A stretch of DNA of 64,000 nt from Haladaptatus salinisoli (GTDB taxonomy: Archaea; Halobacteriota; Halobacteria; Halobacteriales; Haladaptataceae), in assembly GCF_020614375.1 (NCBI RefSeq), contig NZ_CP085327.1, forward strand, positions 1,414,823-1,478,822, given 5' to 3'. Below the pieces are notes generated by a model that saw only the letters and a program-made list of their open reading frames with translations, had not been told where the DNA came from and did not search any database. Position 1 is the first letter of the stretch, and the number at the start of each line of letters is the position of its first letter. Position numbers and translations under genes: made by a program. This document shows positions 8,972 to 49,708 of this stretch, one piece after another.

Positions 8972-9069
8972 GTCGGAAGGGAAGGCCGTGACCGAGTAAG
9001 ACCTTCTGGCTAGTTCGCCGGAGGGGTCGGTCCGTCGGCTACAAGGTGGTGCCCGCGCACGTGGTTCGT

Positions 9070-9807
9070 ATGCACCTCGCTGACGCGACGTGGACCGAGG
9101 CGGACGCGGTGGAGACGAACCTCGCGCTCCTCCCCGTCGGAAGCACCGAACAGCACGGGCCGCACGCTCCCCTCGGAACCGACCGACTGAACGCGGAGGT
9201 GGTCGCGGACGCGGCCGCCGAGGCGTACGACGGCGACGTGGTAGTCGCGCCGCCCGTCGCGGTCGGCGTGAGCGAAGAGCACCGCCAGTTCGCGGGGACG
9301 CTGTGGGTCTCGGAGGGGACCTTCCGGCGGTACGTCCGCGAGACGGTCGCCAGCCTCGCCCACCACGGCTGGGACCGGGTCGTACTCGTCAACGGTCACG
9401 GCGGCAACGTCGCCGCGCTCCGGGAAGTGGCGGGGCGAATCACGCGCCACGACGCCTCCTACGCGGTCCCGTTCACGTGGTTCGAGGCGGTCGGCGACCA
9501 CCGGAGCGACATGGGCCACGCGGGGGCCTTGGAAACCGCGCTCCTGCGACGCGTCCGCCCGGAACTCGTCCGGGAAGACCGAATCGACGAGGCCCGCGAG
9601 GGCGCGAGCGACGGCTGGGGCGACTGGGTGTCGTACACCAACCTCGCGTTCGACAGCGCGGAGTTCACGGAGAACGGCGTGGTCGGCGACCCGCGAGAAG
9701 GAGACGAGGAGCGGGGCGAAGAACTGCTGGAACTGGCGACGCAATCGCTGGTAAAACTGCTCGAAGCGGTGGCGGCGCGGGACGTGGAGCGCCCAGACTA
9801 CCGTTGA
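9070..9807 (+). CDS. Creatininase-family metal-dependent amidohydrolase
   Basis: The 245-residue protein carries the creatininase-superfamily metal motifs: PVGSTEQHGPHAPLGTDRLNA (Glu, His, Asp ligands), VNGHGGN, and DMGHAGALETAL (late His and Glu). Archaeal members include ArfB, the formamide hydrolase of archaeal riboflavin and F420 synthesis; haloarchaea also have other creatininase paralogues, so the substrate is undecided. I start at ATG 9070 (MHLADATW), because the upstream GTG codons would add an unrelated basic extension. It sits alone, divergent from the gene at 8657-8971. Confidence 0.85.
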   Translation: MHLADATWTEADAVETNLALLPVGSTEQHGPHAPLGTDRLNAEVVADAAAEAYDGDVVVAPPVAVGVSEEHRQFAGTLWVSEGTFRRYVRETVASLAHHGWDRVVLVNGHGGNVAALREVAGRITRHDASYAVPFTWFEAVGDHRSDMGHAGALETALLRRVRPELVREDRIDEAREGASDGWGDWVSYTNLAFDSAEFTENGVVGDPREGDEERGEELLELATQSLVKLLEAVAARDVERPDYR

Positions 9808-35521: not shown

Positions 35522-36604
35522 CTACGGCTTCGCTTCGAAGACCATACTGGTCGGCGTCTCGGCCGCACGGCGGAAGCGCGTGAATCCGCCCTCGGTGACG
35601 ACTTCGCGGGTCCGTTCCTCTCCCGCTTGCGCGCCGAGTCCGTAGCCGACCTCCTGACTCAACGAGGTCGGCGTACAGGCCACCGTCGAAATCGAGTACG
35701 CGAGGCGGCCGAACGGGGTGAGATTGTCCTCGACCCGATCCTCGGCGTAGGGTTCGACGATCATCCACGCGCCGCCCTCGGCGAGCGTCTCCCGAACGTG
35801 AGCCGCCACGCCGACGGGATCGCCCATGTCGTGAAAACAGTTAAACATCGCTACGAGGTCGTAGTCGGTTCCCTCGTACTCTTTCGCCGTCGCCACCTCG
35901 AAGCTGACGCGGTCGGCGACGCCGGCGGTCTCCGCGCGCTCGCGCGCCACCGCTATCGACTCCTCGTGGTAGTCGATACCGACGAACGACGAGTCGGGGT
36001 ACGCCTCGGCCATGCGGATGGTCGGTGCGCCGTGTCCACAGCCCACGTCGGCGACGCGCCCTCCCGCTTTCAGCGTGGCGTCCACCCCGTCGAGTTCCGC
36101 GATCCAGTCCATCAGATTGGCCCCGTAGGCCGGTCCGAAGAAGCGTTCGGTGCCGTGGAACACGTCCTCGTCGTGTTCGTGCCAGCCGACGCCCTCGCCC
36201 GTCCGAAACGCCTCCTCGAGCTTCGGCTCGATCTTGGTCGCCGACGCGACCAACTGGAACGCCCCCGGCATGAACACCGGACTCTCCTCGTCGGCTAACA
36301 CGAACGCCTGCTCGGGCGAGAGGCCGTAGCGGTCGGTCTCGGGGTCGTAGGTCACGTATCCGCCGGCGGCCTGCGAGCGCAGCCACTCGCGGACGTAACG
36401 CTCCGCCGTGTCCGTTTTCTCGGCTAGCTCGGCGGACGTGAGCGGCCCGGCGTCGTCCAGTACCGCGTAGAGACCGAGTTCATCGCCGATGACGGCCAGC
36501 GCGGCGTGGACCGTCGCGCCGAGGTCGACCAAGGACGTTTCCACGAGTTCGTTCAGTTTCCGTTCGTCGATCGGGTTGTCTTCCGCACGGGTTTCTGTAG
36601 CCAT
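35522..36604 (-). CDS. Rv2258c-like SAM-dependent methyltransferase with N-terminal winged helix
   Basis: The 360-residue protein has an N-terminal dimerisation/winged-helix segment (ELGLYAVLDDAGPLTSAELAEKTDTAERYVREWLRSQAAGGYVTYD in sections). A Rossmann methyltransferase domain follows, with motif I RVADVGCGHGAPTI, FVGIDYHEES and LVAMFNCFHDMGDPVGVA. This architecture is shared with Rv2258c-type and O-methyltransferase-like enzymes. Its substrate is unknown. It stands 253 bp before the DUF1059 operon and 241 bp after the regulator gene; the shared promoter element suggests co-regulation. Confidence 0.85.
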   Translation of the reverse strand: MATETRAEDNPIDERKLNELVETSLVDLGATVHAALAVIGDELGLYAVLDDAGPLTSAELAEKTDTAERYVREWLRSQAAGGYVTYDPETDRYGLSPEQAFVLADEESPVFMPGAFQLVASATKIEPKLEEAFRTGEGVGWHEHDEDVFHGTERFFGPAYGANLMDWIAELDGVDATLKAGGRVADVGCGHGAPTIRMAEAYPDSSFVGIDYHEESIAVARERAETAGVADRVSFEVATAKEYEGTDYDLVAMFNCFHDMGDPVGVAAHVRETLAEGGAWMIVEPYAEDRVEDNLTPFGRLAYSISTVACTPTSLSQEVGYGLGAQAGEERTREVVTEGGFTRFRRAAETPTSMVFEAKP

Positions 36605-36678
36605 GACTCTGTGCCTTTCGGCGAGCAGCCATTCGGGTGGGACCAACATATCGGCAACTAGTGAAAATCGTGCGACCC

Positions 36679-36701
36679 CTGACGTCCGTGTAGAGGGTGG
36701 A
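36679..36701 (-). promoter_or_regulatory. Conserved 23-bp promoter element, copy 2
   Basis: The plus-strand reading is CTGACGTCCG, then a variable part, then GGTGGA. It lies 74 nt from the methyltransferase start codon at 36604. AACTAGTG lies 15 nt closer to the gene, matching the second block of copy 1. Confidence 0.65.
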
Positions 36702-36845
36702 AGAACCCCGCTAGCTGCAAGACGGTGGGTTCGTCAGCCGGTCGGATTCGGACGCCAACCGGGGCGTCAGCGGTACGGCGCTATAATCCGCTACGCTCGA
36801 ATCGGAAGGGCCGAGAGCGGCGGATTCGACCACGGCCGCTTCGCG

Positions 36846-37655
36846 TCACAACTCCATGACCGTTTCGAGCGGAACCGTCGGGGTCTGCCGCCGGTAGAAC
36901 GAGTACTCCGACTCCGCCCACTCGCGCGCTTCCGGCGAGTCGGTGTCGACCAAGACGCGAACGGTTACGCTGTCGGGGTCGTGGCCGCATATCGCGATTC
37001 GGTGGTCGAAGATGCCGATTCCGTACGGCGGAAGGTCGTCGTGCAACCGGATGGTGAGATTCCCGCTCGCGAGGGTTTCGGCGGACAGCTCCGGGTAGGT
37101 CGAGCGGATGTACCTGGCGACGCTCGGCGGATCGATGATTTCCGTTTGCATGCCGTCGATGACCCGTTGGCAGAACTCGTCCCGACACGGTTCGAGGAGG
37201 GCGAGGTCGGACCCGACGAACCGGAATCGATCCGTCTCCCTGAGGAGCGTGAGGAAGCGATGGAGGGGGCCGTACGGATTGTCGGCTTCGGCGACCGTCA
37301 CGACCGCATCGGCGCACATTTCGATCGTGAACCCGCTCTCCTCGCCGGGAAGCCAGTGCCAGACGTGACGGAGGTTCCGCTCGGTTTCGACTCGTTCGAT
37401 AAGTTCCGCCATCGCGTCCGCGATGAACGCGCCCAGCGGGGTCGTCTCGTACTGATACCCGTTCCGACGGATCCAATTGCGGTCCTCGAACTCGCTCAGC
37501 GTCCGTCGAATGGTGGACGACGAGACCCCGGTCATCTCCCAGAGTTCGGATCGGCTACGGGGACGGACGGTCAGAGCGACGAGCGTCGGAGCACGGTGCT
37601 CGGACCGCGCGAGGTACGCGATGTCGTCGATAGGTGAACCCGCGGTCGATCCCAT
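36846..37655 (-). CDS. Winged-helix transcription regulator (ArsR-type with FilR1/DUF1724-like C domain)
   Basis: The 269-residue protein has an N-terminal winged helix: IAYLARSEHRAPTLVALTVRPRSRSELWEMTGVSSSTIRRTLSEFEDRNWIRRNGYQYETTPLG in sections. The C-terminal sensory domain (about residues 110-265) has two Cys (EMCADAV and LLEPCRDEFCQRV) and ends in a DSPEAREWAESEYSFYRRQ helix, typical of haloarchaeal FilR1-like regulators. It starts 190 bp after the methyltransferase gene in the same orientation, with its own TATA-like AGTTATTATAG about 30 bp before the ATG. It is the obvious candidate to bind the two conserved elements of this locus. Confidence 0.82.
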   Translation of the reverse strand: MGSTAGSPIDDIAYLARSEHRAPTLVALTVRPRSRSELWEMTGVSSSTIRRTLSEFEDRNWIRRNGYQYETTPLGAFIADAMAELIERVETERNLRHVWHWLPGEESGFTIEMCADAVVTVAEADNPYGPLHRFLTLLRETDRFRFVGSDLALLEPCRDEFCQRVIDGMQTEIIDPPSVARYIRSTYPELSAETLASGNLTIRLHDDLPPYGIGIFDHRIAICGHDPDSVTVRVLVDTDSPEAREWAESEYSFYRRQTPTVPLETVMEL

Positions 37656-37763
37656 GACACTAGTACGCACGATTCTATAATAACTATTCGCCCCCTCCGA
37701 TAGCGGGGACGCGCTACTCGACCCGCCCGGCGACTTTTGTGTAGTCGGCACGTACCGAGGACG

Positions 37764-39254
37764 ATGGCACCGGAACTCTCACTCGAGGCGGATTGGAACA
37801 GGCTCTATCTCGACGGAGAATGGGTACCCTCGGAGGGCGGCGAGGAAATCGCGGTCGAGGACCCGTCGTCGCGCGAGGAAATCGCCCGGGTCCCCGCGGG
37901 AGTCGAAGCCGACGTAGACGCCGCCTACGAGGCCGCCGTCGCCGCGCAGAAGGAGTGGGAACGGGCACCGCCCGCCGAGCGCGAACGGGTCGCGCAGAAC
38001 TTCGCACGGTTGCTCCGGGAGTACGAGGACGAGATTATCGACCTGTTGGCTCACGAAGCGGGCGGATCGCGAATCATGGGCGAGACGTCCGTCAGAATCG
38101 CCGGCGACCAAGCGGCGGAGGCGGCCACCTTCCCGCGTCGAGCGAAGGGCGAACAGGTCGATTCGAACATTCCCGGCAAGGAGAATCTGGTTCGACGCGT
38201 GCCGGAGGGCGTCGTCACCGTCATCTCGCCGTGGAACTTCCCCCTCAACCTCTCGGGACGGGCCGTCGCCCCGGCGCTCGCCGCGGGTAACGCCGTCGTT
38301 CTCAAGCCCGCGACCAACACCCCGATTACCGGCGGACTCCTCATGGCGAAACTGTACGAGGAGGCGGGCCTCCCCGACGGGTTGCTCAACGTCGTAACCG
38401 GCCGCGGTTCCGAAATCGGCGACCGGGTCGCCGGCCACCCCGAGAGCGACGTCGTCGCGTTCACCGGTTCGACTCCGGTCGGTCGGGGGGTCGCCGCCAC
38501 CGCCAGCGAGAACCTCTCCGTGGCGGCGATGGAACTCGGCGGAAATAACGGACACGTCGTCACCGCCGACGCCGACGTGGAGGCGGCGGTCGACTCGGCC
38601 GCGTTCGGTTCGTTCGTCCACCAGGGCCAGGTGTGCATCTCCATCAATCGCCACATCGTCCACGAGGATATCTACGACGAGTACGTCGAACGCCTCGTCG
38701 AGCGCGCCGAGGCGCTTCCGACCGGAAGCGCCCACGACCCCGAAACGGTCGTCGGGCCCATCATCAGCGAGTCGCAGCGCGACCAGATGCTCGAGTACGT
38801 CGACGAATCCGTCGAGGCCGGCGCGACCGTAGAAACCGGCGGCGAGACCGTCCCGATGGAGGGCGTCGACGACTCGCTGCTCGTCGCCCCCACGGTCCTC
38901 TCGGACGTGACCAACGACATGTCTGCGGCGTGCCACGAGCACTTCGGTCCGATCGCCCCGGTCATCCCCTTCTCGGATATCGACGAAGCCGTCGATATTC
39001 ACAACGACACCGAGTACGGGCTCTCCGGGTCAGTCCACGCCCGCGACGTCGGCGCGGGCCTGCGGATCGCCGAGCGGATGGACACGGGGATGGTCCACGT
39101 CAACGACCAACCGGTCAACGACGAAGCGCACGTCCCGTTCAGCGGGACGAAGGCCTCCGGCGTGGGCGGCTACAACAGCACCGACATTCTCGACGAGGTC
39201 ACCGAGAAGAAGTGGATATCCCTGCAACACGAGCGGCGGGAGTATCCCTTCTAG
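37764..39254 (+). CDS. NAD(P)-dependent aldehyde dehydrogenase
   Basis: The 496-residue protein is a complete aldehyde dehydrogenase. It has the nucleotide-binding SPWNFPLNL and LKPATNTP, GFTGSTPVG-type loop VAFTGSTPVGRGVAATA, general base Glu in AMELGGNNGHVV, catalytic Cys in GSFVHQGQVCISINR, and the C-terminal NEHFGPIAPV-like HEHFGPIAPVIPF and PFSGTKASGVGG. The closest general class is the benzaldehyde/semialdehyde dehydrogenase type; the substrate cannot be fixed. It is divergent from the regulator gene by 108 bp and lies first in a plus-strand run that continues into the inositol genes. Confidence 0.9.
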   Translation: MAPELSLEADWNRLYLDGEWVPSEGGEEIAVEDPSSREEIARVPAGVEADVDAAYEAAVAAQKEWERAPPAERERVAQNFARLLREYEDEIIDLLAHEAGGSRIMGETSVRIAGDQAAEAATFPRRAKGEQVDSNIPGKENLVRRVPEGVVTVISPWNFPLNLSGRAVAPALAAGNAVVLKPATNTPITGGLLMAKLYEEAGLPDGLLNVVTGRGSEIGDRVAGHPESDVVAFTGSTPVGRGVAATASENLSVAAMELGGNNGHVVTADADVEAAVDSAAFGSFVHQGQVCISINRHIVHEDIYDEYVERLVERAEALPTGSAHDPETVVGPIISESQRDQMLEYVDESVEAGATVETGGETVPMEGVDDSLLVAPTVLSDVTNDMSAACHEHFGPIAPVIPFSDIDEAVDIHNDTEYGLSGSVHARDVGAGLRIAERMDTGMVHVNDQPVNDEAHVPFSGTKASGVGGYNSTDILDEVTEKKWISLQHERREYPF

Positions 39255-39288
39255 CGGGCGACTCGAGGAACGTGCCGCGGCCGGCCCG

Positions 39289-39414
39289 ATGATTCGTCGG
39301 CCCCGAACGACGCCGGGTGAAGAGTCGAACATTTACCGCTGGACGCCGGAGAAGACGACGTGGGAGCGCTACCGACGCGCGTTGACGAGCGAACCACTTC
39401 CCGAAAACCGGTGA
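39289..39414 (+). CDS. Possible 41-aa basic protein before the IMPase gene
   Basis: A 41-codon frame (MIRRPRTTPGEESNIYRWTPEKTTWERYRRALTSEPLPENR in sections) ends 7 bp before the ATG of the next gene. GC-rich third positions and the aromatic-rich NIYRWTPEKTTWERY segment look protein-like, but its basic nature is unusual here. It could be a real leader or microprotein of the operon, or chance. No homology is claimed. Confidence 0.3.
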   Translation: MIRRPRTTPGEESNIYRWTPEKTTWERYRRALTSEPLPENR

Positions 39415-39421
39415 ACGACCG

Positions 39422-40267
39422 ATGAGCGACCCCAATCCGACCGACGTCGACCCGGCAGAGCGAGCGTCCGTCGCCGAGCGGGCCGCCAAGGCCGGCAGCG
39501 ACGTCGGACTGAAGTGGTTCCGGGAGCGCCTCGACGTCGATACGAAGACCGGCCCGACGGACTACGTCACGAAGGCCGACCGCGGTTCTCAGGAGCGGAT
39601 AGTGGAGGTCATCCGCGACGACTATCCCGACGACGTAATCGTCGCCGAGGAGGGAACGGCGCGGAAGACGCTCCCCGCCGAAGGAACCGCTTGGCTCGTC
39701 GACCCCATCGACGGCACGTTCGAGTTCGTTCGCGGCCTCCCGCTGTGGGCCGTGAGCGTCGCGTGCGTTCGCGACGGCGAACCGGTCGCCGCGGTCAACG
39801 CGCTGCCGGCGCTAGACGAACTCTACGTCGCCGCCAACGCCGCCGCCACGACGTACAGCTTCGTCGACGGAAACGCGGCGACCGTCGACGGGACGCCCGC
39901 GTCCGTCAGCGAACGCGACGACGCCGAGACGTTCGCCGCGGGCATCATCGACTGGCACGATTTCGACGCCGACGAGCCGTCGACGGGTCTGGTGAGGGGG
40001 TTCGCCGAGCGGTTCGGCGAGGTTCGTCGCCTCGGGTCGTCGCAAACCACGCTGACGTACGTCGCGAGCGGCGCTCTCGACGTCGCAGTTTCGACCAACC
40101 CGAACCCGTGGAACAACGTCGCCGGCGCGCATCTCATCGCCCGCGCAGGCGGAACCGTCACCGACGCCGAGGGTCGTCCGTGGAAACCGGGTGCCGAGTA
40201 CCTCGTGGCCTCGAACGGAACCGCCCACGACGTCGTCCTGGAGACCGTCGGAAACCACCGTCCTTGA
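39422..40267 (+). CDS. Inositol-monophosphatase-family phosphatase
   Basis: The 281-residue protein has the FIG superfamily metal site: VTKADRGSQERIVEVI, EEGTARK (Glu-Glu), the core DPIDGTFEFVRGLP and, near the C terminus, NPWNNVAGAHLIARAGGTVTD. The WNNVAG site replaces the usual WDxAAG Asp with Asn, so the second metal site may be altered. Family members hydrolyse inositol-1-phosphate, fructose-1,6-bisphosphate or PAP. Since myo-inositol-1-phosphate synthase follows 390 bp downstream, inositol phosphate or the phosphodiester product of the cluster is a fitting substrate, but this is inference. Confidence 0.82.
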   Translation: MSDPNPTDVDPAERASVAERAAKAGSDVGLKWFRERLDVDTKTGPTDYVTKADRGSQERIVEVIRDDYPDDVIVAEEGTARKTLPAEGTAWLVDPIDGTFEFVRGLPLWAVSVACVRDGEPVAAVNALPALDELYVAANAAATTYSFVDGNAATVDGTPASVSERDDAETFAAGIIDWHDFDADEPSTGLVRGFAERFGEVRRLGSSQTTLTYVASGALDVAVSTNPNPWNNVAGAHLIARAGGTVTDAEGRPWKPGAEYLVASNGTAHDVVLETVGNHRP

Positions 40268-40657
40268 CCGGCACCGGCCGGTTGCAATCTGGACCCCCTC
40301 TATCGGCCGTCGACTCGGACGGCGCGGACGCATTTACGACACCCCTCCGAATCGAGGTCCTATCACGGAGTACGCGAATTTGCCGATACTGTCAGGAAAC
40401 CGGTCTCGGTCGATGACCGCGGACGCCGCGACCGTCGGCAACGTTTCCGCGACGAAATTTGAGCTTACACTGTCGTTTTTACCGTTTACCGCGGCCTCAC
40501 CCCCTCTCTTCTGAGGAAACCAACCGACCCGTTCCTCCGCGCATAATTCAATATACCTAACAACTCTCAGAGGGCGTACCGAGGTACCTGCGCTCGACGG
40601 CTTCCTCTTATGATTTCAATAACAATGTGGCCGGCAGTCGTGGTGGTAAGAGGAATT
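40268..40657. other. Intergenic region upstream of ino1 (390 bp)
   Basis: No supported gene. The last 120 bp are A/T-rich for this genome and hold TATA-like elements (TTCAATATACC near 40547, CCTCTTATG near 40603) and GTACC-GA-GGTAC arms at 40576-40587. This is the probable promoter/operator region of the ino1 operon. A 33-codon frame at 40415 was judged chance. Confidence 0.5.
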
Positions 40658-41743
40658 ATGTCAGATATCTCAGTGGCTGTCGCGGGTGTCGGCAACTGTG
40701 CCAGCGCGCTCGTTCAAGGCGTCGAGTACTACCGCGAGAACGACACGAGAAGTGGACTCGCACACCCGGAACTCGGCGGCTATCGTCCGTCCGACGTGGA
40801 GTTCGTCGCGGCGTTCGATATCGACCGCCGGAAGGTCGGGCGCGACTTGAGCGAGGCCATCTACGCGGGTCCGAACTGTACGGGGGTCATCAGCGAGTCG
40901 GTGCCCGAACAGGGTGTCGACGTGCGGATGGGGCCGCCGCTCGACGGGGTCGCGTCGCACATGAACGAAGCCCCGGCGGAGGAGTCGTTCCGCGTCGCCG
41001 ACCGCGACCCCGTCGACGTCGCGGAGGTTCTCCGGGAGACCGACGCGGACGTTCTCGTCAACTACATGCCCGTGGGGTCGCAGGAAGCGGTGGAGTACTA
41101 CGCGACGAGTTGCCTCGACGCGGGCGTCGCCATGGTCAACTGCATGCCGGTGTTCGTCGCCTCCGATTCCGAGTGGGGGAACGAATTCGAGGACGCCGGC
41201 CTACCTATCGTCGGCGACGACATCAAGTCGCAACTCGGCGCGACCGTCCTCCACCGGACGCTCGCCCGTCTGTTCGACCAACGCGGCGTCGACCTCGACG
41301 CAACCTACCAGTTGAACGTCGGAGGGAACACCGACTTCCTGAACATGCTCGAACGCGAGCGCCTCGAAACCAAGAAAATCTCGAAGACGGAGGCGGTTCA
41401 ATCCCAGCTCACCGAAAAACTCGACGACCGGGCCATTCACATCAGCCCGTCGGACCACGTTTCGTGGCTCGGCGACAACAAGGTCGCGTTCGTCAGGATG
41501 AAAGGCGACGGCTTCGGCGGCGCCGAACTCACGCTCGAAGCGCGCCTATCGGTCGAGGACTCGCCTAACAGCGGCGGGATGGCCATCGACGCCATCCGAG
41601 CCTGTAAGCTCGCGCTCGAACGCGACGTCGGGGGGCCCCTTTCCGCGGCGTCCGCGGTCACGATGAAACACCCGCCCGTCCAGTACACCGACGAGGAGGC
41701 CGAGCGACGGTTCACTCGGTTCGCGGAGGAGAAATCGCCGTGA
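40658..41743 (+). CDS. ino1: myo-Inositol-1-phosphate synthase (Ino1)
   Basis: The 361-residue protein matches the actinobacterial/archaeal Ino1 type in length and signatures: AVAGVGNCASALVQGVEYY (NAD loop), VEFVAAFDIDRRKVGRDLSEAI, VLVNYMPVGSQEA, the catalytic-region IVGDDIKSQLGATVLHR, LNVGGNTDFLNMLERERLETKKISKT, HISPSDHVSWLGD and EDSPNSGGMAIDAIRA. It converts glucose-6-phosphate to L-myo-inositol-1-phosphate using NAD+. Its stop overlaps the next start (GTGA), so it is coupled to the nucleotidyltransferase gene. ATG 40658 is chosen; frames starting earlier add a spurious hydrophobic extension. Confidence 0.95.
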   Translation: MSDISVAVAGVGNCASALVQGVEYYRENDTRSGLAHPELGGYRPSDVEFVAAFDIDRRKVGRDLSEAIYAGPNCTGVISESVPEQGVDVRMGPPLDGVASHMNEAPAEESFRVADRDPVDVAEVLRETDADVLVNYMPVGSQEAVEYYATSCLDAGVAMVNCMPVFVASDSEWGNEFEDAGLPIVGDDIKSQLGATVLHRTLARLFDQRGVDLDATYQLNVGGNTDFLNMLERERLETKKISKTEAVQSQLTEKLDDRAIHISPSDHVSWLGDNKVAFVRMKGDGFGGAELTLEARLSVEDSPNSGGMAIDAIRACKLALERDVGGPLSAASAVTMKHPPVQYTDEEAERRFTRFAEEKSP

Positions 41744-42447
41744 CGCGGTACGTGGTGTTGGCGGCGGGAGAGGGGAGCCGGATGCGCGAGCGGACGTCGC
41801 TACCGAAGCCCCTCGTCGAGGTGGGCGACCGCGCGTTGCTCGAACACGTCCTCGACCGCATCGCCGAGACCGACGTCTCCGCGGTCACCGTGGTGGTCGG
41901 GTATCAGCACGAACGCGTCGAAGCGTTCCTCGACGGGGCGAGCTACGACTTCCCGGTCGAGACGGTCGTCAACCCCGATTACGAGCGCGAGAACGGATTT
42001 TCGCTGCTGCGGGCCGCCGCGACCGTCGACGGACCGTTCGTGCTCGCCATGGCCGACCACATCGTCGACCCCGAGATCTACCGCCGAGCGGGCCGTCACG
42101 ACGGCTTCGGCCTCTGTACCGACGATTCGCCGCCCCCCGGAGAGGACGAGGACGAGGCCACCACCGTGCGGGTCGAGGACGGTCGCATCGTCGCCATCGG
42201 CAAAGACCTCCGAGAGTGGGACGCGGTCGACACCGGCGTGTTCATGCTCGCGCCCGAGATATTCGAGGCCCTCGAGGAGCGGACGTCGAGTCACGAGGTG
42301 ACCGTCACCGACGGCGTCCGCGAACTCATCGCCCGCGGTCGGGACGTCGAGACCATCGACGTCGCGGGGTGCCGGTGGGTCGACGTCGATACGCCGGACG
42401 ACCTGCGGATCGCCGAGCGCGTTCTCGCGAACGAATCGGGAGGCTGA
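41740..42447 (+). CDS. CTP:inositol-1-phosphate cytidylyltransferase-like nucleotidyltransferase
   Basis: The 235-residue GTA-fold nucleotidyltransferase has the nucleotide loop LAAGEGSRMRERTSLPKPLVEV. It then carries NPDYERENGFSLLRAA (residues 78-92) and FVLAMADHIVDPEI with metal Asp106, and a C-terminal GCRWVDVDTPDDL motif. The ENGFSL segment plus MADH resembles what I recall of the IPCT part of Archaeoglobus and Thermococcus IPCT/DIPPS enzymes, which make CDP-inositol. Generic sugar-phosphate activity cannot be excluded, but overlap with ino1 and the next CDP-alcohol transferase fixes a CDP-inositol role as most likely. Start codon is GTG. Confidence 0.85.
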   Translation: MTRYVVLAAGEGSRMRERTSLPKPLVEVGDRALLEHVLDRIAETDVSAVTVVVGYQHERVEAFLDGASYDFPVETVVNPDYERENGFSLLRAAATVDGPFVLAMADHIVDPEIYRRAGRHDGFGLCTDDSPPPGEDEDEATTVRVEDGRIVAIGKDLREWDAVDTGVFMLAPEIFEALEERTSSHEVTVTDGVRELIARGRDVETIDVAGCRWVDVDTPDDLRIAERVLANESGG

Positions 42448-42450
42448 GCG

Positions 42451-43671
42451 ATGAAGGCCGTCGTCGTGAATCCATCGACGGAACGAATCAGCGGCGTGCC
42501 GCTCGTCGAGCGACTGGTTCGGGGGCTCGAGGAGGCGGGGATCTCCGACGTCCGCGTCTACGGTCTCGACGACGCGGTGGGGGAAGCGCCGCACGCCGTG
42601 TCCGCCGACGGCGGCGAGACGTCGGACGGCGGGGTTCTGTACGTGGACGGCCGCCACTACGTCGACGAGCGGATCTTCGAGGCGGTCGCCGACCGTCAAG
42701 GGACGTACCTCGTCGTCGACGACCCCCGCGACGACGGCGGAGCGCCGAACCCGCGCGGGGGAATCCCGGTCGGGGTCGACGGCGACGCGGTGACCGCGGT
42801 CGGCCGAGACGGTGATAAACTGTGGACGGGCGTGGCCAGACTGGACGCCGTCGACGAAACGCGAACCGACGCCGAATCGTTCCTCGACGAGGTGGCGGCG
42901 ACCGACGGCCTCGGATGGTTCGACGTCGCCGAAATCGATACGTACGTCACCAAACTGCGGCGGGACGTGCCGCTGCACTGGTACCGCGTCGACGACCGGA
43001 AGAGCCGCCGGGCGGCCGAACGGGCGGTGCTCGACGCGAGCAAGAAGAGTCCGGCCGACCTCGTGGCGACGTACGTCCACGACCCCATCGAGGACCGGGT
43101 CGTCCTGCGACTCGCCAACCGTTCGATCACGCCGAACCAGATCACGCTGCTCGTCAACGTCGTCGCGTACCTCGCGACCGCGCTATTCGCGACCGGCTAC
43201 CTCCTGCCGGCGTCGCTGTTGACGTTCGTCGTCGGACTCGCCGACGGGTTCGACGGGAAACTCGCGCGGCTCACGGGGATGAAGACCCGGGTCGGGGCCA
43301 TGGAGCACTCCTTCGATCTGCTGTACGAGTTCTCCTGGATCGTCGCGCTCGGATACTACCTCTCCCGGAGCGCCGGGGCGCGACCGCTCCTGCTCGCGGC
43401 CGGCATCGTCACCGTCGTGGCCTTCTACCGGGACCTCTACGACCGCTTCATCGACCAGACGGGCTACAGCGTCGACGTTGCGAGCCCCTTCATGGAGCGC
43501 TTCCAACTCGTCACCGGCCGCCGGAACGTGTACAACCTCCACATCCTCGCGTTCGTCCTCCTGGGATACCCGCTGTTCGCCCTGTACACCATCGGCGCGC
43601 ACGCCGTGCTGACCGCTACCGTTTACTCCGTCCAGTCGTTCGTCCGGCTTCGCCGCCTCGATACCGAGTAA
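42451..43671 (+). CDS. CDP-alcohol phosphotransferase with degenerate N-terminal nucleotidyltransferase domain (DIPP-synthase-like)
   Basis: The 406-residue protein starts 3 bp after the cytidylyltransferase gene. Residues 1-190 resemble a nucleotidyltransferase (ISGVPLVERLVRGLEEAGISDVRVYG; also a FDVAEIDTYVTKLRRD end), but the LAAGxGxR loop is replaced by VNPSTER, so it should be inactive. Residues 225-400 are a CDP-alcohol phosphotransferase with about six helices. The DxxDGxxAR part is intact (D265, D268, G269, A272, R273), while the second half reads G282-AM-E285-HSF-D289 instead of GxxxDxxxD. By analogy it joins CDP-inositol to an alcohol, inositol-1-phosphate for DIPP, or a lipid. Confidence 0.85.
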   Translation: MKAVVVNPSTERISGVPLVERLVRGLEEAGISDVRVYGLDDAVGEAPHAVSADGGETSDGGVLYVDGRHYVDERIFEAVADRQGTYLVVDDPRDDGGAPNPRGGIPVGVDGDAVTAVGRDGDKLWTGVARLDAVDETRTDAESFLDEVAATDGLGWFDVAEIDTYVTKLRRDVPLHWYRVDDRKSRRAAERAVLDASKKSPADLVATYVHDPIEDRVVLRLANRSITPNQITLLVNVVAYLATALFATGYLLPASLLTFVVGLADGFDGKLARLTGMKTRVGAMEHSFDLLYEFSWIVALGYYLSRSAGARPLLLAAGIVTVVAFYRDLYDRFIDQTGYSVDVASPFMERFQLVTGRRNVYNLHILAFVLLGYPLFALYTIGAHAVLTATVYSVQSFVRLRRLDTE

Positions 43672-43759
43672 GTTCGGCGCCGTCGCCTCGCACCTCCGCA
43701 CCGAGGCTCGGGGCCGCTACGCCTTTTCGTCTCCGTCGCCTCCTCGTAAGCGATACGCG

Positions 43760-45181
43760 ATGCGCCAGCGAGTCGAACGGGGCGTCCGGCGAGTCGTCCC
43801 CGACGGGGTCGCTGATTCCGTCGAGGGAGCGTACGCCGCCGCCCGGCGCGGGATTCGAGCGCGCCGCGCGAACCGGTCGTTCGAGCGACGCGACGCCGGG
43901 GACCCGACGTCACCGGCGGCGGACGCGCCCGACCACGTCGTCCTCGTCGTCGTGGACGCCCTCCGCGCGGACGCCCTCGACGCGGAACGGACGCCGTTCC
44001 TGTCGTCGTTGGACGGGACGGACGCCGTCGCACCCGCGACGTGGACGTTCCCCTCGGTCACGTCGCTCCTCTCGGGAACGTATCCCCACGACCACGGCGC
44101 GATGCGCCGGTCGGACGACTACGAGAACTCGGTGGCGGACGTCACCGGTCTACCGCCGCAGTCGGACGTCCCCCTCCTCGCCGATCACCTCGACGCCGCC
44201 GGCTACCGCACGTACGGCGCGTTCGGCTTCGTCGTCCCGTTCCTCGCGCTTCGCGGCCGGTTCGCCGAACACCGGCTCTACGCCGACGCCGACGCCCGCC
44301 GACTCCTCGCCGACCACGCCGAGTGGCTGGCCGACCGCCGCGACGACCGGACGTTCTCCTACCTCCACCTCGCGGATCTGCACGAACCCGTCGAACCCCC
44401 CGCTCCGTACGCGGCCGAGCACGACGTGGATACCTCCATCCCCGACATCGAGGGCTGGAACTACGAGGACGTGGTGACCTCGACGCCGACCGCGGATCGC
44501 TACCGCAGGAACCGGCGGCGTCTGTACGAGGCGGCGGTCGAATACGCGGACGACCGCCTCGCCGCCCACCATCGCCGCGTCGCCGACCTGGTGGACGACG
44601 CCGCGTTCGTCGTTACCGGCGACCACGGCGAGGGGTTCTGGGAGCGCGCGCGGTTCCACGCCGATACCTTCGCCGACCCCCGTCCCGCGTACTGCGTCGG
44701 CCACGGCGGCGCGCCCCACGAAGCCGTCACCCGGGTTCCGGTGCGAACCGACGGGTTCGCCGTCGCCGGGACGGACCGCCCGACCTCGTTGGTCGACATC
44801 GCGCCGACGGTTCTGCGGGCCGCGACGGGAGAAGACGGCGTCGGAGGGGATTCCTCGGCCGACGCCGACCCGGACGCGGGGGGTGTCCCCCTCGACGAAC
44901 CGGTGCCGGACGACCGAATTCGACTCGTCGAGGGGACGCGCTACGGGTACGAGAAGAAGGCGGTCTACGCCGACGGATGGAAGTTGATGGTGTCTCGTGG
45001 CGACGACGCGTCCGTCGGGTTCTCGCTGCCGTCGGAGACGGAGACGACGATTCCGCCGGACGCGGCGACGCGTCTCTCCGACGCTCTCCCGCCGTGGCCG
45101 ACGTCCGGCGACGCGGCGGCCGTGCGAGACGACGTCGCCGGCGACGTCGCTCGCCGACTCGAACGACTCGGATATCGCTAA
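43760..45181 (+). CDS. Alkaline-phosphatase-superfamily phosphohydrolase/phosphotransferase (sulfatase fold)
   Basis: The 473-residue protein has the metal Asp in VVVDALRADAL (D66). The nucleophile loop ATWTFPSVTSLLSGTYPHDHG carries Thr96 where sulfatases have a Cys or Ser, and Val replaces the sulfatase Arg. Later metal sites are FVVTGDHGEGF and CVGHGGAPHEAVTRVPV. Thr nucleophiles are typical of LtaS, EptA and NPP type phosphotransferases/phosphodiesterases, so sulfatase activity is unlikely. No signal peptide or membrane helix is visible. The position after the CDP-alcohol enzyme suggests action on an inositol-phosphate product. The downstream end overlaps a convergent remnant by 4 bp. Confidence 0.82.
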   Translation: MRQRVERGVRRVVPDGVADSVEGAYAAARRGIRARRANRSFERRDAGDPTSPAADAPDHVVLVVVDALRADALDAERTPFLSSLDGTDAVAPATWTFPSVTSLLSGTYPHDHGAMRRSDDYENSVADVTGLPPQSDVPLLADHLDAAGYRTYGAFGFVVPFLALRGRFAEHRLYADADARRLLADHAEWLADRRDDRTFSYLHLADLHEPVEPPAPYAAEHDVDTSIPDIEGWNYEDVVTSTPTADRYRRNRRRLYEAAVEYADDRLAAHHRRVADLVDDAAFVVTGDHGEGFWERARFHADTFADPRPAYCVGHGGAPHEAVTRVPVRTDGFAVAGTDRPTSLVDIAPTVLRAATGEDGVGGDSSADADPDAGGVPLDEPVPDDRIRLVEGTRYGYEKKAVYADGWKLMVSRGDDASVGFSLPSETETTIPPDAATRLSDALPPWPTSGDAAAVRDDVAGDVARRLERLGYR

Positions 45182-45423
45182 CGCTTCCGGACGACGTCGT
45201 TCGAAAGCGGAGTCCGGGGACGGCGCTCCCACCGGTTGTCTCCGGCAACGACGATAACGGTCTCACCGACGACGTCGAGGGACGCTTCGACGTCGGGGCC
45301 GAAGTCGACGGTGATGACGTTTTCCACCTCGTATTCGCGGCGAGTGATCGTAACGTCATCCCGCTCGTTCGCGGCGGACTGAAGCGGGCGCGGAGTTTCC
45401 GTACGTCGGATTGACTCGTCGCG
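45178..45423 (-). pseudogene. Hsp20/DUF7127-like remnant without start codon
   Basis: The minus strand reads RREYEVENVITVDFGPDVEASLDVVGETVIVVAGDNRWER in sections, which fits the beta-sandwich of small haloarchaeal Hsp20-like (DUF7127-type) proteins. Upstream the frame contains no ATG, GTG or TTG until it runs into the end of the DUF892 gene, apart from the GTG inside EYEVENV. It looks like a 5'-truncated gene; an unusual start codon cannot be excluded. Confidence 0.4.
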
Positions 45424-45424
45424 C

Positions 45425-45979
45425 CTAAGTTCCGCGCCCGTCGTTCGACGGGTATCGAAGGGCGCTCAATTCGTCCCGGAGGGTATCGAGGGTCGATTTC
45501 CCCGCGAGTCCCCGAAGCTTCCTGAGGGTCTTTCCCTCCTGTCCGAGGTTATCCTCCAGCGGGGTCGTCACGCCCTCCCCGACGCCTATCTTCTTGGCTA
45601 TCCTGAGAAGTTCCTCGTAGCTCGTTATCTCGATGCGTTCCGTCTCGATTCCGAAATCGAGGTAGCGGAGATTCCGAAGTTCGTCGTCCTTCACGCCGGC
45701 GTCGAACCGGTCCCTCTCTTCCAACAGACCGTCGACGACTCGGTTGTCCCGCCGGGTCGGCTCCTTCCCGAGCGCCTCGAACGCCTCCTCCACGCGTCTC
45801 ACTTGCGTCTCCGTCTCGGTGCGGTGGATGGCGAACCCCGCGCTGAGATTGTCGTTAGTGGCCAGTTGCGACATCTCGTCGAGGGCGTCGACCAGCTTCA
45901 CCTCCATGTCGTAGACCGCCTCGAGGGTGAACACGAACAGGTCCTCCGGGTTTCGGAGTTCGGTCTGTGGTGCGCTCAT
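45425..45979 (-). CDS. DUF892/YciF-type ferritin-like protein
   Basis: The 184-residue protein is a four-helix bundle of the YciE/YciF (DUF892) family. It opens NPEDLFVFTLEAVYDMEVKLVDALDEMSQLATNDNLSAGFAIHRTETETQVRRVEEAFEALG in sections, then DFGIETERIEITSYEELLRIAKKIG and VTTPLEDNLGQEGKTL. Glu and His residues in helices 1, 2 and 3 give a possible di-metal site. YciF-like proteins are stress-associated in bacteria. ATG 45979 is chosen; frames open beyond it are shadows. A stress-related partner (PRC-barrel-like protein) is encoded 2.2 kb downstream. Confidence 0.85.
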   Translation of the reverse strand: MSAPQTELRNPEDLFVFTLEAVYDMEVKLVDALDEMSQLATNDNLSAGFAIHRTETETQVRRVEEAFEALGKEPTRRDNRVVDGLLEERDRFDAGVKDDELRNLRYLDFGIETERIEITSYEELLRIAKKIGVGEGVTTPLEDNLGQEGKTLRKLRGLAGKSTLDTLRDELSALRYPSNDGRGT

Positions 45980-46145
45980 GGACGTTCCGTAGACGGTTCG
46001 AGAGGGAGTCGTAAAGCCGTTTTTCCGACGGAGTAGTTCGTTCTCGAAGTAACACGGATACCTCGAGAGGGGTTCCGGTCGGGTCGCTGCTCTCGGCGGA
46101 GCGCGTTCCGCTGGCTCCTTCGGGCGTTCCGTTCGCGGCGTTCGG

Positions 46146-47045
46146 TCACCGGTTCTGATACTCGCTCGCCCGATGGTGGCGCGCGAACCACCACAGGAGG
46201 AATCGTCTCGCCGGATAGGAGGTGGCGATTCGGACGCCGAAGTCCGTGGCCGGAGTCCGCAGCGACTCGGGGAGCAGGGCTTCGATAACCGTGCCCGCCT
46301 TGGCCGCCGACCCGACCTCGTACCGTCGCTTCGGGGCGTCGCTGTTCGCGGCTTCGAGCATGGTTTCGGCGACCGTTTCGGGGGACGCGATTCCCGGCCC
46401 GCCGCTTTTGACGGTGTGCAGCAGTTCGAGCACCTCGTAGAGGTCGGTGTACGCCGCTTTGTGGTCGACGTCGACGAGTTCGTCGCGCACTCGGTCGTAG
46501 AAGTCCGTCGCGATGGCCGTCGGTTCGACGACGACGACGTCGATACCGTGTTCCCGCACCTCCTGACGAACGGTCCGGCTGACGGTCGCGAGCGCCGACT
46601 TCGAGCCGCTGTAGACGCCGTTGCCGGCGATCGGGTAGCGGTCGGTGATGCTCGTGACGTTGATGATCGTCCCCGAGCCGCTATCACGCATGTGCGGCAG
46701 GGCGGCGCGCATCAATCGATACGGGCCGAAAACGTTCACCTCGTACTGCTCGCGCACCTTGTCGATCGGAACGTCCTCGACGGGGCCCATCTGCCCGAAG
46801 CCGGCGTTGTTGACGAGGCAGTCCAGGCGACCCCGCTCCTCGACGACGCGCTCGACGACCCGCACCGCGTCCTCGGTCGAGGTGACGTCGAGCGCTGCCG
46901 TCCTGGCCCCCGCGTCCCCGAGCGCGGCGAGTTCGTTCGGATCGCGGGCGGTCGCGTAGACCTCCCACCCGTCGGCCAGAAACTCGCGAGCGGCCGCGCG
47001 CCCGACGCCGGACGAACAGCCGGTAATGAGAGCCGTGGTACCCAT
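46146..47045 (-). CDS. Short-chain dehydrogenase/reductase
   Basis: The 299-residue classical SDR has the NAD(P) loop TGCSSGVGRAAA, NNAG in LVNNAGFGQMG, the catalytic Ser in INVTSITDRYP and YSGSK (Tyr-x3-Lys). Arg33 region (YATARDP) suggests NADP. Substrate unknown; the C-terminal extension (residues 240-299, with ARRFLLWWFARHHR) resembles retinol/steroid-type SDRs that associate with membranes. A perfect 14-bp palindrome abuts the start codon and probably controls it. Confidence 0.9.
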   Translation of the reverse strand: MGTTALITGCSSGVGRAAAREFLADGWEVYATARDPNELAALGDAGARTAALDVTSTEDAVRVVERVVEERGRLDCLVNNAGFGQMGPVEDVPIDKVREQYEVNVFGPYRLMRAALPHMRDSGSGTIINVTSITDRYPIAGNGVYSGSKSALATVSRTVRQEVREHGIDVVVVEPTAIATDFYDRVRDELVDVDHKAAYTDLYEVLELLHTVKSGGPGIASPETVAETMLEAANSDAPKRRYEVGSAAKAGTVIEALLPESLRTPATDFGVRIATSYPARRFLLWWFARHHRASEYQNR

Positions 47046-47082
47046 CGTGAACGTTCACGCTCCGCAAGCGCATAGGTTCACG
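47046..47082 (-). promoter_or_regulatory. Palindromic operator at SDR start plus extra half-site
   Basis: CGTGAAC-GTTCACG is a perfect 14-bp palindrome at 47046-47059, directly next to the ATG (47043-47045). Another GTTCACG half-site lies at 47076-47082. The weak TATA candidate CCTATGCGC sits between the two. A dimeric repressor overlapping the leaderless transcription start is the simplest reading. Confidence 0.55.
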
Positions 47083-47111
47083 GGCGAAACGCACTGCGAA
47101 CCGGAGACGAG

Positions 47112-47285
47112 TTACTCAGCTTCCTCGTCGTTCGCTTCCGCCGCTTCTTCCTCGCCCTCCTCGTCGACTCGTTCCTCCGCCTGCTTCTGTTTCTGGACCA
47201 AACTCTCGCTATCCTCGTCGTTCGGTTCGCTCCGTTCTTTCTCCTCGACCGCTTCGGTCAGCGGGTCGTCGTTCTCGTCCGTCAT
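47112..47285 (-). CDS. Small acidic protein (57 aa)
   Basis: An ATG-to-TAA frame of 57 residues (MTDENDDPLTEAVEEKERSEPNDEDSE, continuing VQKQKQAEERVDEEGE) is almost entirely Glu, Asp, Ala and Gln. It would be disordered or a single helix. It lies between the SDR operator and coaD and is too short and biased for a family call. Its codon use is consistent with coding, but low complexity keeps confidence moderate. Confidence 0.55.
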   Translation of the reverse strand: MTDENDDPLTEAVEEKERSEPNDEDSESLVQKQKQAEERVDEEGEEEAAEANDEEAE

Positions 47286-47447
47286 GGTTCCCGTTCGGGG
47301 TACCTTCCTGAGAGACTTAATCGCGTCGGCGGCTACGGTCGTCGTCCACGACGCGACGAATCGAACGCGACCGGCTTCCGGGTGACTACGAGGAGTACCG
47401 ACCGTCGTTCGGCTGAGGTTTATCCGTCTCGCCGCCGGAAATGGAAT

Positions 47448-47918
47448 ATGCGAGTCGCAGTCGCCGGGACGTTCGGCCCGTTACACGACGGTCATCGAGC
47501 GATGTTTGAAGCGGCGCTGGAGCGCGGCGACGAGGGCGTGGTCGTCGGCCTCAGTAGCGACGAGTTCGCGCGCGAGACGCGACGACCAAATCCCCGCCCG
47601 ATTCCACCGTACGAGGAGCGCAAACGGCGGGTGGAAGCGACCCTCGACGAACTCGACGAGCGGAACCGAGAGGTCGAAATTCGCCGGTTCGGCGACGAAC
47701 ACGGCTTCGCGGACGACGATCCGTCGTTAGATGCGCTGGTCGTCTCACCCGAAACCGACGAGGAGGTCGCCGCGATCAACCGCCGGCGGACGGACCGAGG
47801 AATGGAACCGCTCGAATCCGTCGTCGTTCCGTACGCGTACGCCGAAGACGGGGAGCCGATCTCGTCGACGCGCATCGTGAACGGGGAGATCGACGAACAC
47901 GGCACCCTCCTCGGGTGA
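47448..47918 (+). CDS. coaD: Archaeal phosphopantetheine adenylyltransferase (CoaD type)
   Basis: The 156-residue nucleotidyltransferase has GTFGPLHDGHRAMFEAA (HxGH), the binding segment GLSSDEFARETRRPNPRPIPPYEERKRRVEATL, VVSPETDEEVAAINRRR and ISSTRI near the end. It transfers AMP to 4'-phosphopantetheine in CoA synthesis; this is the archaeal/eukaryotic-like form. ATG 47448 is used with a TATA-like GGTTTATCC about 27 bp upstream. The enzyme is a single-gene unit, divergent from the small acidic gene. Confidence 0.92.
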   Translation: MRVAVAGTFGPLHDGHRAMFEAALERGDEGVVVGLSSDEFARETRRPNPRPIPPYEERKRRVEATLDELDERNREVEIRRFGDEHGFADDDPSLDALVVSPETDEEVAAINRRRTDRGMEPLESVVVPYAYAEDGEPISSTRIVNGEIDEHGTLLG

Positions 47919-48184
47919 TTTTTCGCGTAACATCGCGCCGCTCGCCGGGCGCGGTGACGGGGTGCATCGGACGAACCCGACCGACGAAGCGACGACTCCT
48001 TTGCAACCGCTCGAACTTCGGTCGGACTCGCTACCGACCTTCGTCGTGAGCGCGTTCGAGCGACCGCGTCGGACGGAAATAATCACCGAACGCTTCGTCG
48101 CTGAATTACAGCGACGTTCGACGCTAGTAAAATCGCCGACATATATAAGTAGACCATCGGCTAGCCTCCAACCGGTGGGGGAGA

Positions 48185-49504
48185 ATGTCCGAGAATCCAG
48201 AAAACACCGGCGAGACGCGCATCACGACCGACCGGGAGACGATCAGAACGTGGGCCGACGAGAGCGGCTGGCAGCCCGCGTACCGAACCGACGCGGAGAC
48301 GCGGTCGCCGTTCGCCTACTCGCCGGAACGACACGCCGACGTGGAGGTCGAGGAGGCCGAGTGGGAGGAGTTCCTCGAAGCGTTCGACGACGAGGAGATG
48401 GCGGTCATCCGATATCCGGCGACGGACGAGGAGACGGAGCGGTACGAGGTCGTCCCGCGCTCGGAGGTCGCTGAGCGGGCGACGCTCGAAAGCGCCGAGG
48501 TCGAACAGGCGCTGCTGGACGGCGAAACCGTCCGGAGCGAAATCACTGAAACTCGCGTCATCGAGCGCGAAATCGTCGAAACCGAGACCATCGAGAGCGA
48601 GGTCGTCGACTCCGAAATCGTCGCCGACCGAATCGTCGACACCGAACTCATCCGGCGCGAACTGACCGACACCGAACCGGAGTTCGTCGACGACGACACG
48701 CTCGTCCTCGAGTTCGACGAGACGAGACTGGTGCGCCGCGAGGTCGTCGAGCGCAAGCGAATCGAGAGCGAGGTCGTCGACGTCGACGTCGCCGAGCGAG
48801 ACGTTCTCGAAGAGGATTCGCTCGAGAGCGTGGTCGACATCGAAGGCGTCCAGCGAACGCTCCTCCAGAGCAACCTCTTCGGCGAGATGCCGGTCGAGGA
48901 AGCCATCCAAGCCGGGCACATCGAGAGCGAGTTCACGGAGGGCAGGATCATCGAGAGCCTGCTGTTCGAACGCCGACTCGTCGAGGACGAAATCGTCGAC
49001 CGGGTGGAGAACGTCTACGACTTGACCGAGAGCGAGGTCGTCGAGACCACGACGGCGACCTCCGACCTCGTCGAGAGCGGTATCGTGGACGCGGAGTACG
49101 TCGAGCGCGAGTTCGGTTCGGAAGTGGTCGCGGGGACGACCGAATCGGTGACCATCGAGGAGGAGACGACCGAGACGGAGACCGAAACGATGGGGACGAC
49201 CGAGGACGAGACGATGGAGACGGGGACGACCGAAACCGAGACGACGGGAACGGCGGAGGACGAGGGCGAAGCCGTCTCCCTCAACAACCGCGACACGGGG
49301 AAGAAGGTCGTGAACCGCGACGGCGAGAAGATCGGCATGGTCGCCGAAGTCGAAGGGGACACCATCTACGTCGACCCCGACCCCAGTTTCACCGACCGCG
49401 TCAAGGCCGAACTCGGCATCGAAGAGCACGACGAGGACACGTATCCGGTCAGAGTCGACCAGATAGACGAGGTCACTCGAACCGAGGTTCGAATCGCCGG
49501 ATAG
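48185..49504 (+). CDS. Acidic pentad-repeat protein with C-terminal PRC-barrel-like domain
   Basis: The 439-residue protein has four parts. Residues 1-95 form an N-terminal domain. Residues 115-165, 180-215 and 243-310 show a 5-residue rhythm, two hydrophobic then acidic, any, acidic (IVETE, TIESE, VVDSE, IVADR, IVDTE). Residues 320-360 are a Thr/Glu-rich linker. Residues 363-436 are a PRC-barrel-like domain (VVNRDGEKIGMVAEVEGDTIYVDPDP, YPVRVDQIDEVT). The fusion recalls YsnF-type stress proteins (PRC plus DUF2382), but the repeat is more regular here. A TATA-like ACATATATAAG sits at about 48138-48148, with a possible SD-like GGGGGAG before the ATG. Confidence 0.8.
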   Translation: MSENPENTGETRITTDRETIRTWADESGWQPAYRTDAETRSPFAYSPERHADVEVEEAEWEEFLEAFDDEEMAVIRYPATDEETERYEVVPRSEVAERATLESAEVEQALLDGETVRSEITETRVIEREIVETETIESEVVDSEIVADRIVDTELIRRELTDTEPEFVDDDTLVLEFDETRLVRREVVERKRIESEVVDVDVAERDVLEEDSLESVVDIEGVQRTLLQSNLFGEMPVEEAIQAGHIESEFTEGRIIESLLFERRLVEDEIVDRVENVYDLTESEVVETTTATSDLVESGIVDAEYVEREFGSEVVAGTTESVTIEEETTETETETMGTTEDETMETGTTETETTGTAEDEGEAVSLNNRDTGKKVVNRDGEKIGMVAEVEGDTIYVDPDPSFTDRVKAELGIEEHDEDTYPVRVDQIDEVTRTEVRIAG

Positions 49505-49708
49505 CCGACGGTCGAATCGCCGGTTCGGCTCCGCGTCGGGGAAGGACCCCGACGTTCGACCCCTTCGAAACGTTCCCGGCGGCGTTACCGTCCGAAACGG
49601 AAGGAGCCGCCGGAAAAACGGAGCGGCGCGATACCATCTCGCTCACCTCCGGCAGTTGATTCTTTAAACGGGCCATAAATAAGGTAGGCGGTGAGAGAGC
49701 GTTCCGGT

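Follow-up and report, generated by a model that had tools for sequence, protein, structure and literature searches.

The stretch of DNA analysed here (the window, 64,000 nucleotides of the haloarchaeon Haladaptatus salinisoli, contig NZ_CP085327.1, positions 1,414,823 to 1,478,822) carries ino1, a gene for a protein like CTP:inositol-1-phosphate cytidylyltransferase (IPCT) and a gene for a CDP-alcohol phosphotransferase (hereafter PT), flanked by an IMPase-family gene and a gene of the sulfatase/alkaline-phosphatase superfamily (Table 1). A sequence-only reading of this DNA had placed these five open reading frames in a row on the plus strand, and all five proved present and open, with their families confirmed by Pfam. 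The tight spacing it described was also borne out, with a 4 bp overlap between ino1 and the IPCT-like gene and a 3 bp gap between the latter and PT, while 390 bp separate the end of the IMPase gene from the ino1 start at 40658 and 88 bp separate PT from the sulfatase-family gene.

Only ino1, the IPCT-like gene and PT look like one unit. The earlier suggestion that all five genes form one system had to be given up, as IMPase homologues were detected in 0 of 40 PT loci and one of 80 IPCT loci, and sulfatase-family homologues in none of either set. The PT loci comprise 39 from 38 of the 40 Bathyarchaeia genomes with a hit (G878 and G914 left out) and one from Acetothermia, the IPCT loci are the best 80 of 375 confirmed, and as the loci read span 3–19 kb, more distant IMPase or sulfatase partners would be missed. 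The IMPase is a possible accessory source of free inositol and not a conserved partner, and the sulfatase-family gene is probably a neighbour outside the cassette.

Table 1 Features of the ino1–IPCT–PT locus and its flanking genes (positions in the window)
Feature	Position	Strand	Details
IMPase-family gene	39422-40267	+	281 aa; PF00459 (Inositol_P) 160.6 bits, cut-off 27
ino1, myo-inositol-1-phosphate synthase, actinobacterial/bacterial type	40658-41743 (alternative start 40610)	+	PF01658 119.2 bits, cut-off 27
IPCT-like CTP:inositol-1-phosphate cytidylyltransferase	41740-42447	+	235 aa, GTG start; NTP_transf_3 59.3 bits, cut-off 27
IPCT-like protein, sequence description	41740-42447	+	CYTIDYLYLTRANSFERASE
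CDP-alcohol phosphotransferase (PT), putative CDP-inositol phosphoinositol transferase, unnamed clade	42451-43671	+	406 aa; PF01066 (CDP-OH_P_transf) 31.7 bits, cut-off 22
PT N-terminal part, putative decayed IPCT-like domain	42451-42975	+	hhalign against IPCT profile
PT catalytic motif D-x2-D-G-K-L-A-R-x8-G-x2-E-H-x-F-D	43243-43317	+	third acid Glu, not Asp
PT R-R-N-x-Y-N motif replacing RxxR	43519-43536	+	profile alignment superposes both motifs
Sulfatase/alkaline-phosphatase-superfamily gene	43760-45181	+	473 aa; PF00884 (Sulfatase) 64.9 bits, cut-off 25

Ino1 and the cytidylyltransferase

The ino1 start at 40658, from which the protein begins MSDISVAVAGVGNCAS, was preferred over 40610 because the protein aligns from residue 3 onwards with the bacterial enzyme of known structure (PDB 1gr0, E = 2.2e-120). 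The protein passed the PF01658 cut-off and scored 450 bits against the mycothiol-type model TIGR03450, under its cut-off of 638, and is the single ino1 match in the genome. Among 391 sampled Halobacteria, Ino1 was found in two (E ≤ 1e-15), H. salinisoli itself and another member of its family. The second, in another genus, lies near a contig end (L261, genome G019, 8718–9806), and no PT or IPCT homologue was found within the 13 kb read around it. The closest Ino1, at 65% identity and also by tree path, is that of Acetothermia. In the Ino1 tree the window gene, the Acetothermia locus L085 and the second haloarchaeal Ino1 (L260) form a group with support 91, with the fork left open, the two haloarchaeal rows being long branches that meet.

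The IPCT-like protein contains the ENGFSL and MADH motifs that had been read from the sequence, and the expected match to IPCT was recovered in both profile and PDB searches, other sugar families scoring lower. Its best NCBIfam profile was NF041135 (E = 2.3e-49, 168.5 bits), followed by AglF (102.5 bits) and archaeal GlmU (91.9 bits). Both this protein and PT (44.3 bits) missed the 580-bit equivalog cut-off of NF041135, a model and cut-off which describe the fused two-domain IPCT/DIPPS enzyme. The best PDB matches were Archaeoglobus fulgidus IPCT (2xme, E = 1.2e-32; 4mnd, 2.2e-32) and then a nucleotidyl transferase (4jd0, 8.2e-15), and identity to 11 archaeal IPCT domains was 29–41%.

Four residues, N85, S88, K155 and D164, are common to 114–116 of 116 IPCT-like rows, and any of them occurs in at most two of the haloarchaeal GlmU-like rows, for which 28 usable rows came from the 31 loci L009–L039; the two rows with a shared residue, L009 and L039, lack others of the four. 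M104 and H107 also match the IPCT-like rows; these rows were picked by similarity to the window protein, many in a scan requiring MxDH, so the agreement at M104 and H107 is partly selected. In the sampled Halobacteria, 52 other genomes match the protein at E ≤ 1e-25 (best 1.8e-28, 32–38% identity), of which 29 were read as loci, the usable rows looking GlmU-like except L039. A sugar nucleotidyltransferase of GlmU or AglF type was set aside on the profile scores and the IPCT-type residues. The best family and structure matches, together with these residues, place the predicted product of 41740–42447 with IPCT. In a tree built with a quick method (153 rows reduced to 73 by removing near-identical ones), it pairs with L085 at 99, within a group (96) holding Sphingomonas-type IPCTs and not those of Bathyarchaeia.

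A separate phosphotransferase clade

PT exceeds the PF01066 cut-off and has the superfamily fold, and so is assigned to the CDP-alcohol phosphotransferases, two more of which are encoded in the genome. Its AlphaFold model has a mean pLDDT of 68.5, with ten-residue means of 68–95 from residue 211 and values below 50 at residues 39–59 and 83–173. The nearest fold in Foldseek was AF2299 (4o6m; E = 1.1e-10, TM score 0.70 by target length, rmsd 8.7), which likewise has a cytidylyltransferase-like N-terminal domain on its CDP-alcohol phosphotransferase, but differs in having the canonical third Asp and RxxR (in the aligned segment) and in forming its own clade; IPCT-DIPPS 4mnd came next (1.3e-9). 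The first 175 residues of PT had no Pfam match. Residues 11–91 align in hhalign with IPCT residues 26–129 (probability 94.6, E = 6.6e-8), and the LAAGxGxR nucleotidyltransferase signature and the NGxS motif are absent. Because intact fused IPCT-PT proteins occur in 17 of the 40 related loci, this stretch appears to be a decayed IPCT domain, whose function would have been taken over by the separate gene. A split pathway, as first proposed, is therefore correct in that IPCT is a gene of its own, but PT retains a degenerate IPCT-like N-terminal stretch.

The superfamily motif DxxDGxxARx8GxxxDxxxD is not matched by PT, in which the third Asp is Glu and the spacing is one residue shorter. We compared 42 rows of the PT clade (the window, Acetothermia, Bathyarchaeia and one planctomycete) with 89 canonical DIPPS-like rows and four bacterial relatives, the counts including close relatives, unthinned. 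In all 42 clade rows the third acid (PT residue 285) is Glu; the canonical rows have Asp in 87 of 89 cases and the bacterial rows in 4/4. Where RxxR has its second Arg, the clade shows Tyr (41 rows) or Phe (one), and 77 of 89 canonical rows have Arg. A pseudo-enzyme arising through mutation of the third Asp was set aside, the Glu being kept in 42/42, and archaetidylinositol phosphate synthase was rejected on score (NF040950, 41.5 bits, cut-off 180).

In the PT tree (136 rows thinned to 73 in the same way, midpoint-rooted) the window-type clade has support of 100/94 and the window and Acetothermia proteins pair at 100/99. Outside this clade lies a group (81/93) that contains the AF2299-like rows together with 37 of the 50 canonical ones, and some canonical rows remain in an open fork with the clade. 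The assignment of 42451–43671 to canonical DIPPS thus failed, both on RRNxY in place of RxxR and on the tree, and PT falls outside the canonical DIPP synthases, in a separate, well-supported clade with its own signatures. The comparison with Archaeoglobus and Thermococcus holds for the logic of Ino1, IPCT and CDP-alcohol phosphotransferase and for the fold, which are shared with the A. fulgidus IPCT-DIPPS (4mnd) and the Thermococcales enzyme of NF041135. In contrast to these, the window has a separate IPCT, and its PT belongs to another clade, with Glu as the third acid, RRNxY for RxxR with the second Arg gone, and a decayed N-terminal IPCT domain.

Two loci carry window-type and canonical-type genes together. 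A planctomycete metagenome-assembled genome (MAG; L137, 3293–6101) has ino1 followed by two tandem fused IPCT-CDP-alcohol phosphotransferase genes, one window-type and one canonical, and since both occur in one MAG the two types may catalyse different reactions. In a Bathyarchaeota MAG (L152, 1784–3779, the same stretch as L238), a window-type PT precedes a CDP-alcohol phosphotransferase with the canonical motif and then a gene that resembles a glycosyltransferase by eye.

Distribution and apparent transfer

The genome searches score only the top-ranked candidates from an initial pass, and absences hold for that sensitivity. PT was found in one of the 391 Halobacteria at E ≤ 1e-10, the H. salinisoli genome itself, and the survey of haloarchaeal genomes that had been proposed showed the neighbourhood not to be conserved in this sample. 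No IPCT was found in eight other genomes of the genus at E ≤ 1e-20, and a syntenic remnant within the genus was set aside, as matches to the cassette in these eight were limited to 30 and 40 bp fragments. In a phylum-wide sample, 80 of 392 genomes matched NF041135 at E ≤ 1e-30, H. salinisoli being the sole one from its order, with a match covering the IPCT half only. A collection scan using PT alone found no relative, and among the matches listed in literature searches, mostly of non-subscription papers, no title or abstract start described such a haloarchaeal locus.

Of 256 genomes of the class Bathyarchaeia, 40 had a member of the PT clade. Among the 40 loci PT was called in 39 (L230, with frame conflicts, has none), and IPCT is fused to PT in 17 and separate within 60 bp in 19, hence fused or adjacent in 36; ino1 is present in 14. 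All three genes occur together in 13 of 39 Bathyarchaeia loci and in the Candidatus Acetothermia MAG (L085), where IPCT shares 4 bp with PT and is separated from ino1 by one open reading frame. These cassettes (L085, L200–L239) resemble the window in combining the same PT clade with IPCT and, in part, ino1; unlike the window, those of Bathyarchaeia often have a fused IPCT, and two further genes, c2 and GH130, may adjoin. Ino1 and PT are thus rare in the sampled Halobacteria (two and one of 391), yet occur together with IPCT here, in L085 and in Bathyarchaeia, which speaks for the cassette proposed below.

The cassette is in our judgement a real unit with a new PT variant, apparently acquired horizontally from outside its own group. 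Its GC content (62–70% in 1 kb windows) falls inside the 62–71% range of the 14 kb examined. Contamination of the genome was estimated at 5.4%; a contaminant-contig origin was set aside, as the cassette sits on a 2.87 Mb contig. The wider region matched 22 plasmid records at the DNA level, including Haladaptatus (four, with the best match), Haloarcula (four) and Halorussus (three). The IMPase gene has paralogous DNA matches at other sites in the genome, and part of the sulfatase-family gene matches, at 74.8% in DNA, a sulfatase-like gene carried by a Halomarina plasmid. A word search found no TATA-like words in the locus (L001). Further downstream lie a DUF892 gene on the minus strand (45428–46000) and an acidic protein of 439 aa with 15/30 bp repeats and without a Pfam match (48185–49504).

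Acceptor and product

We read the locus as a transferred three-gene CDP-inositol cassette whose product is most likely the soluble inositol phosphodiester di-myo-inositol phosphate (DIP), a protectant known chiefly from thermophiles, a reading in which we place slightly better than even confidence. Ino1 would convert glucose-6-phosphate to L-myo-inositol-1-phosphate, the IPCT-like enzyme would form CDP-inositol from this and CTP, and the membrane-bound PT would transfer phospho-inositol from CDP-inositol onto a second inositol. The adjacent IMPase could provide free inositol, and a phosphorylated intermediate would be unnecessary. According to one structural study, an Arg of the RxxR motif in PIP synthases is a proposed ligand for the phosphate group of inositol phosphate, and eukaryotic PI synthases do not conserve it (PMC4634129). 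Because the PT clade has lost the second Arg of this motif, with its proposed contact, throughout, inositol-1-phosphate is a less likely acceptor than free myo-inositol, which is probably the one used. The accessible section of an earlier paper reports, as unpublished results, formation of DIP from CDP-inositol and myo-inositol in hyperthermophile cell extracts, with no candidate gene then, and elsewhere in that section names inositol-1-phosphate as the acceptor of the step (PMC1224877).

In Bathyarchaeia, the genes around PT speak for a soluble product of the DIP type rather than a lipid or polymer. A gene family that we term c2 (361–369 aa where intact, broken in L218) was present in 11 of the 40 PT loci, 10 of them with a called PT. 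It lies 3, -19, 3 and 1 bp from PT in L219, L220, L222 and L223, four cases that do not count as independent because the genomes are related, and 25–1397 bp away in the other six, three on the opposite strand. Two c2 representatives matched no Pfam or NCBIfam family, and a search of the PDB returned no convincing solved structure for the family. A c2 match (E ≤ 0.001) was found in 11 of 21 chosen genomes, including G458, which we take to be A. profundus, and was not found in G507, presumably A. fulgidus. In G429, taken to be Ferroglobus placidus, c2 and a GH130 gene share 4 bp. GH130 occurs in five of the 40 PT loci, and the one scanned comes closest to beta-1,2-mannobiose phosphorylase, with 291.7 bits against a cut-off of 450. 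Mannosyl-DIP (MDIP) synthase is reportedly present in A. profundus. This enzyme is a beta-1,2-mannosyltransferase which mannosylates DIP and is unrelated to known glycosyltransferase families, as stated in the part of the source available (PMC3124967). From this description, the genome pattern and the GH130 link, c2 is read as MDIP-synthase-like, and the PT product in c2-bearing organisms may thus be DIP-like. As c2 was not found in the H. salinisoli or Acetothermia genomes, these would make the unmannosylated compound.

Several points weigh against a DIP product. Haloarchaea usually balance salt with KCl. The function given to c2 is inferred, G458 has no GH130 in the 18 kb read around c2, and the absence of c2 extends to both H. 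salinisoli and its nearest relative, Acetothermia. The Glu-for-Asp exchange, together with spacing that is one residue shorter, could change how the enzyme works or make it less active, and 12 of the 89 canonical rows also lack Arg at the RxxR position. For the second Arg (R191 in PIPS), a part in binding inositol phosphate is putative. Finally, the window-type clade joins bacterial LptFG-cluster PTs at 100/98, and these sister genes sit among LptF/LptG permeases and acylglycerol/diacylglycerol kinases, so that the sister-clade bacterial loci look like lipid head-group loci. Three such loci on bacterial plasmids (L081, L083 and L084) also carry a metallophosphoesterase and nucleotidyltransferases nearby.

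The main rival is therefore a CDP-inositol-dependent inositol ether lipid, for which PT would move phospho-inositol onto a diether lipid alcohol in a Kennedy-type reaction, and which we consider unlikely. Besides the lipid-type loci of the sister clade, it draws on the loss of the Arg, which suits a lipid alcohol equally, and on the glycosyltransferase-like gene of L152. Inositol phospholipid synthesis with CDP-inositol as head-group donor has been cited and a Bacteroidetes route proposed, in the available portion of PMC9246714. Both the CDP-inositol lipid pathway (Jorge et al. 2015, as cited elsewhere) and the Bacteroidetes cluster (Heaver et al. 2022, in the part available) resemble the window in having a cytidylyltransferase and a CDP-alcohol phosphotransferase near Ino1, with CDP-inositol as the proposed donor, but the HAD hydrolase described for that cluster was not seen at the window. 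In Sphingomonas (L082, L096, L114, L141 and L159, one on a plasmid) a different CDP-alcohol phosphotransferase is followed by ino1 and IPCT in the same order, and in a Rhodothermaceae MAG (L149) one related to it precedes an Ino1 of another type and IPCT. These loci perhaps serve inositol lipids, but their phosphotransferase is of another subfamily (in L149 SphPT-type, without a match to PT), which argues against a lipid product at the window. Eukaryotic lipid-acceptor enzymes of the superfamily typically have three to four extra C-terminal helices in the text available (PMC4634129), whereas the PT model stops after the sixth helix, and the sugar-type neighbours GH130 and c2 point to a soluble product.

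In the canonical DIP route, PT would use inositol-1-phosphate to form DIPP, which the neighbouring IMPase would convert to DIP. The kinds of genes are those of Archaeoglobus-type synthesis with an IMPase adjacent, and IPCT-DIPPS 4mnd is among the nearest folds, but the second RxxR Arg is Tyr or Phe in 42/42, PT lies outside the group with most canonical rows and the IMPase neighbours 0/40 PT loci; we find this route improbable. A cell-surface glycan or polymer carrying phospho-inositol is more doubtful still. CDP-alcohol phosphotransferases can use many alcohols and a sulfatase-superfamily gene lies downstream, but this gene is not a conserved partner and no glycosyltransferase family was matched among the 12 window proteins scanned (35525–50665), two of which matched nothing. 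Least credible is action of the cytidylyltransferase on another phospho-substrate, such as phosphoglycerate in the manner of CpgD, since despite the diverse phospho-compounds taken by related COG1213 enzymes (available text of PMC12275187), the gene overlaps ino1 by 4 bp and has IPCT as its best match with IPCT-type residues.

Returning to DIP as the product, we tentatively extend the proposal, at clearly less than even confidence, to the PT clade as a whole, which may be a second, independent DIP synthase joining CDP-inositol directly to free myo-inositol, with no phosphorylated intermediate, and transferred to a haloarchaeon for use as a salt or heat solute pathway; the compatible-solute role we infer, as we do the substrates, acceptor and product. 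If true, a heat-stress solute pathway would have entered a salt-loving archaeon by gene transfer. The clade would define an undescribed group of CDP-alcohol phosphotransferases in which both the catalytic acid and the acceptor motif are altered, and would offer a concrete candidate gene for direct, non-phosphorylated DIP synthesis as well as tying uncultured Bathyarchaeia to (mannosyl-)DIP-type solutes.

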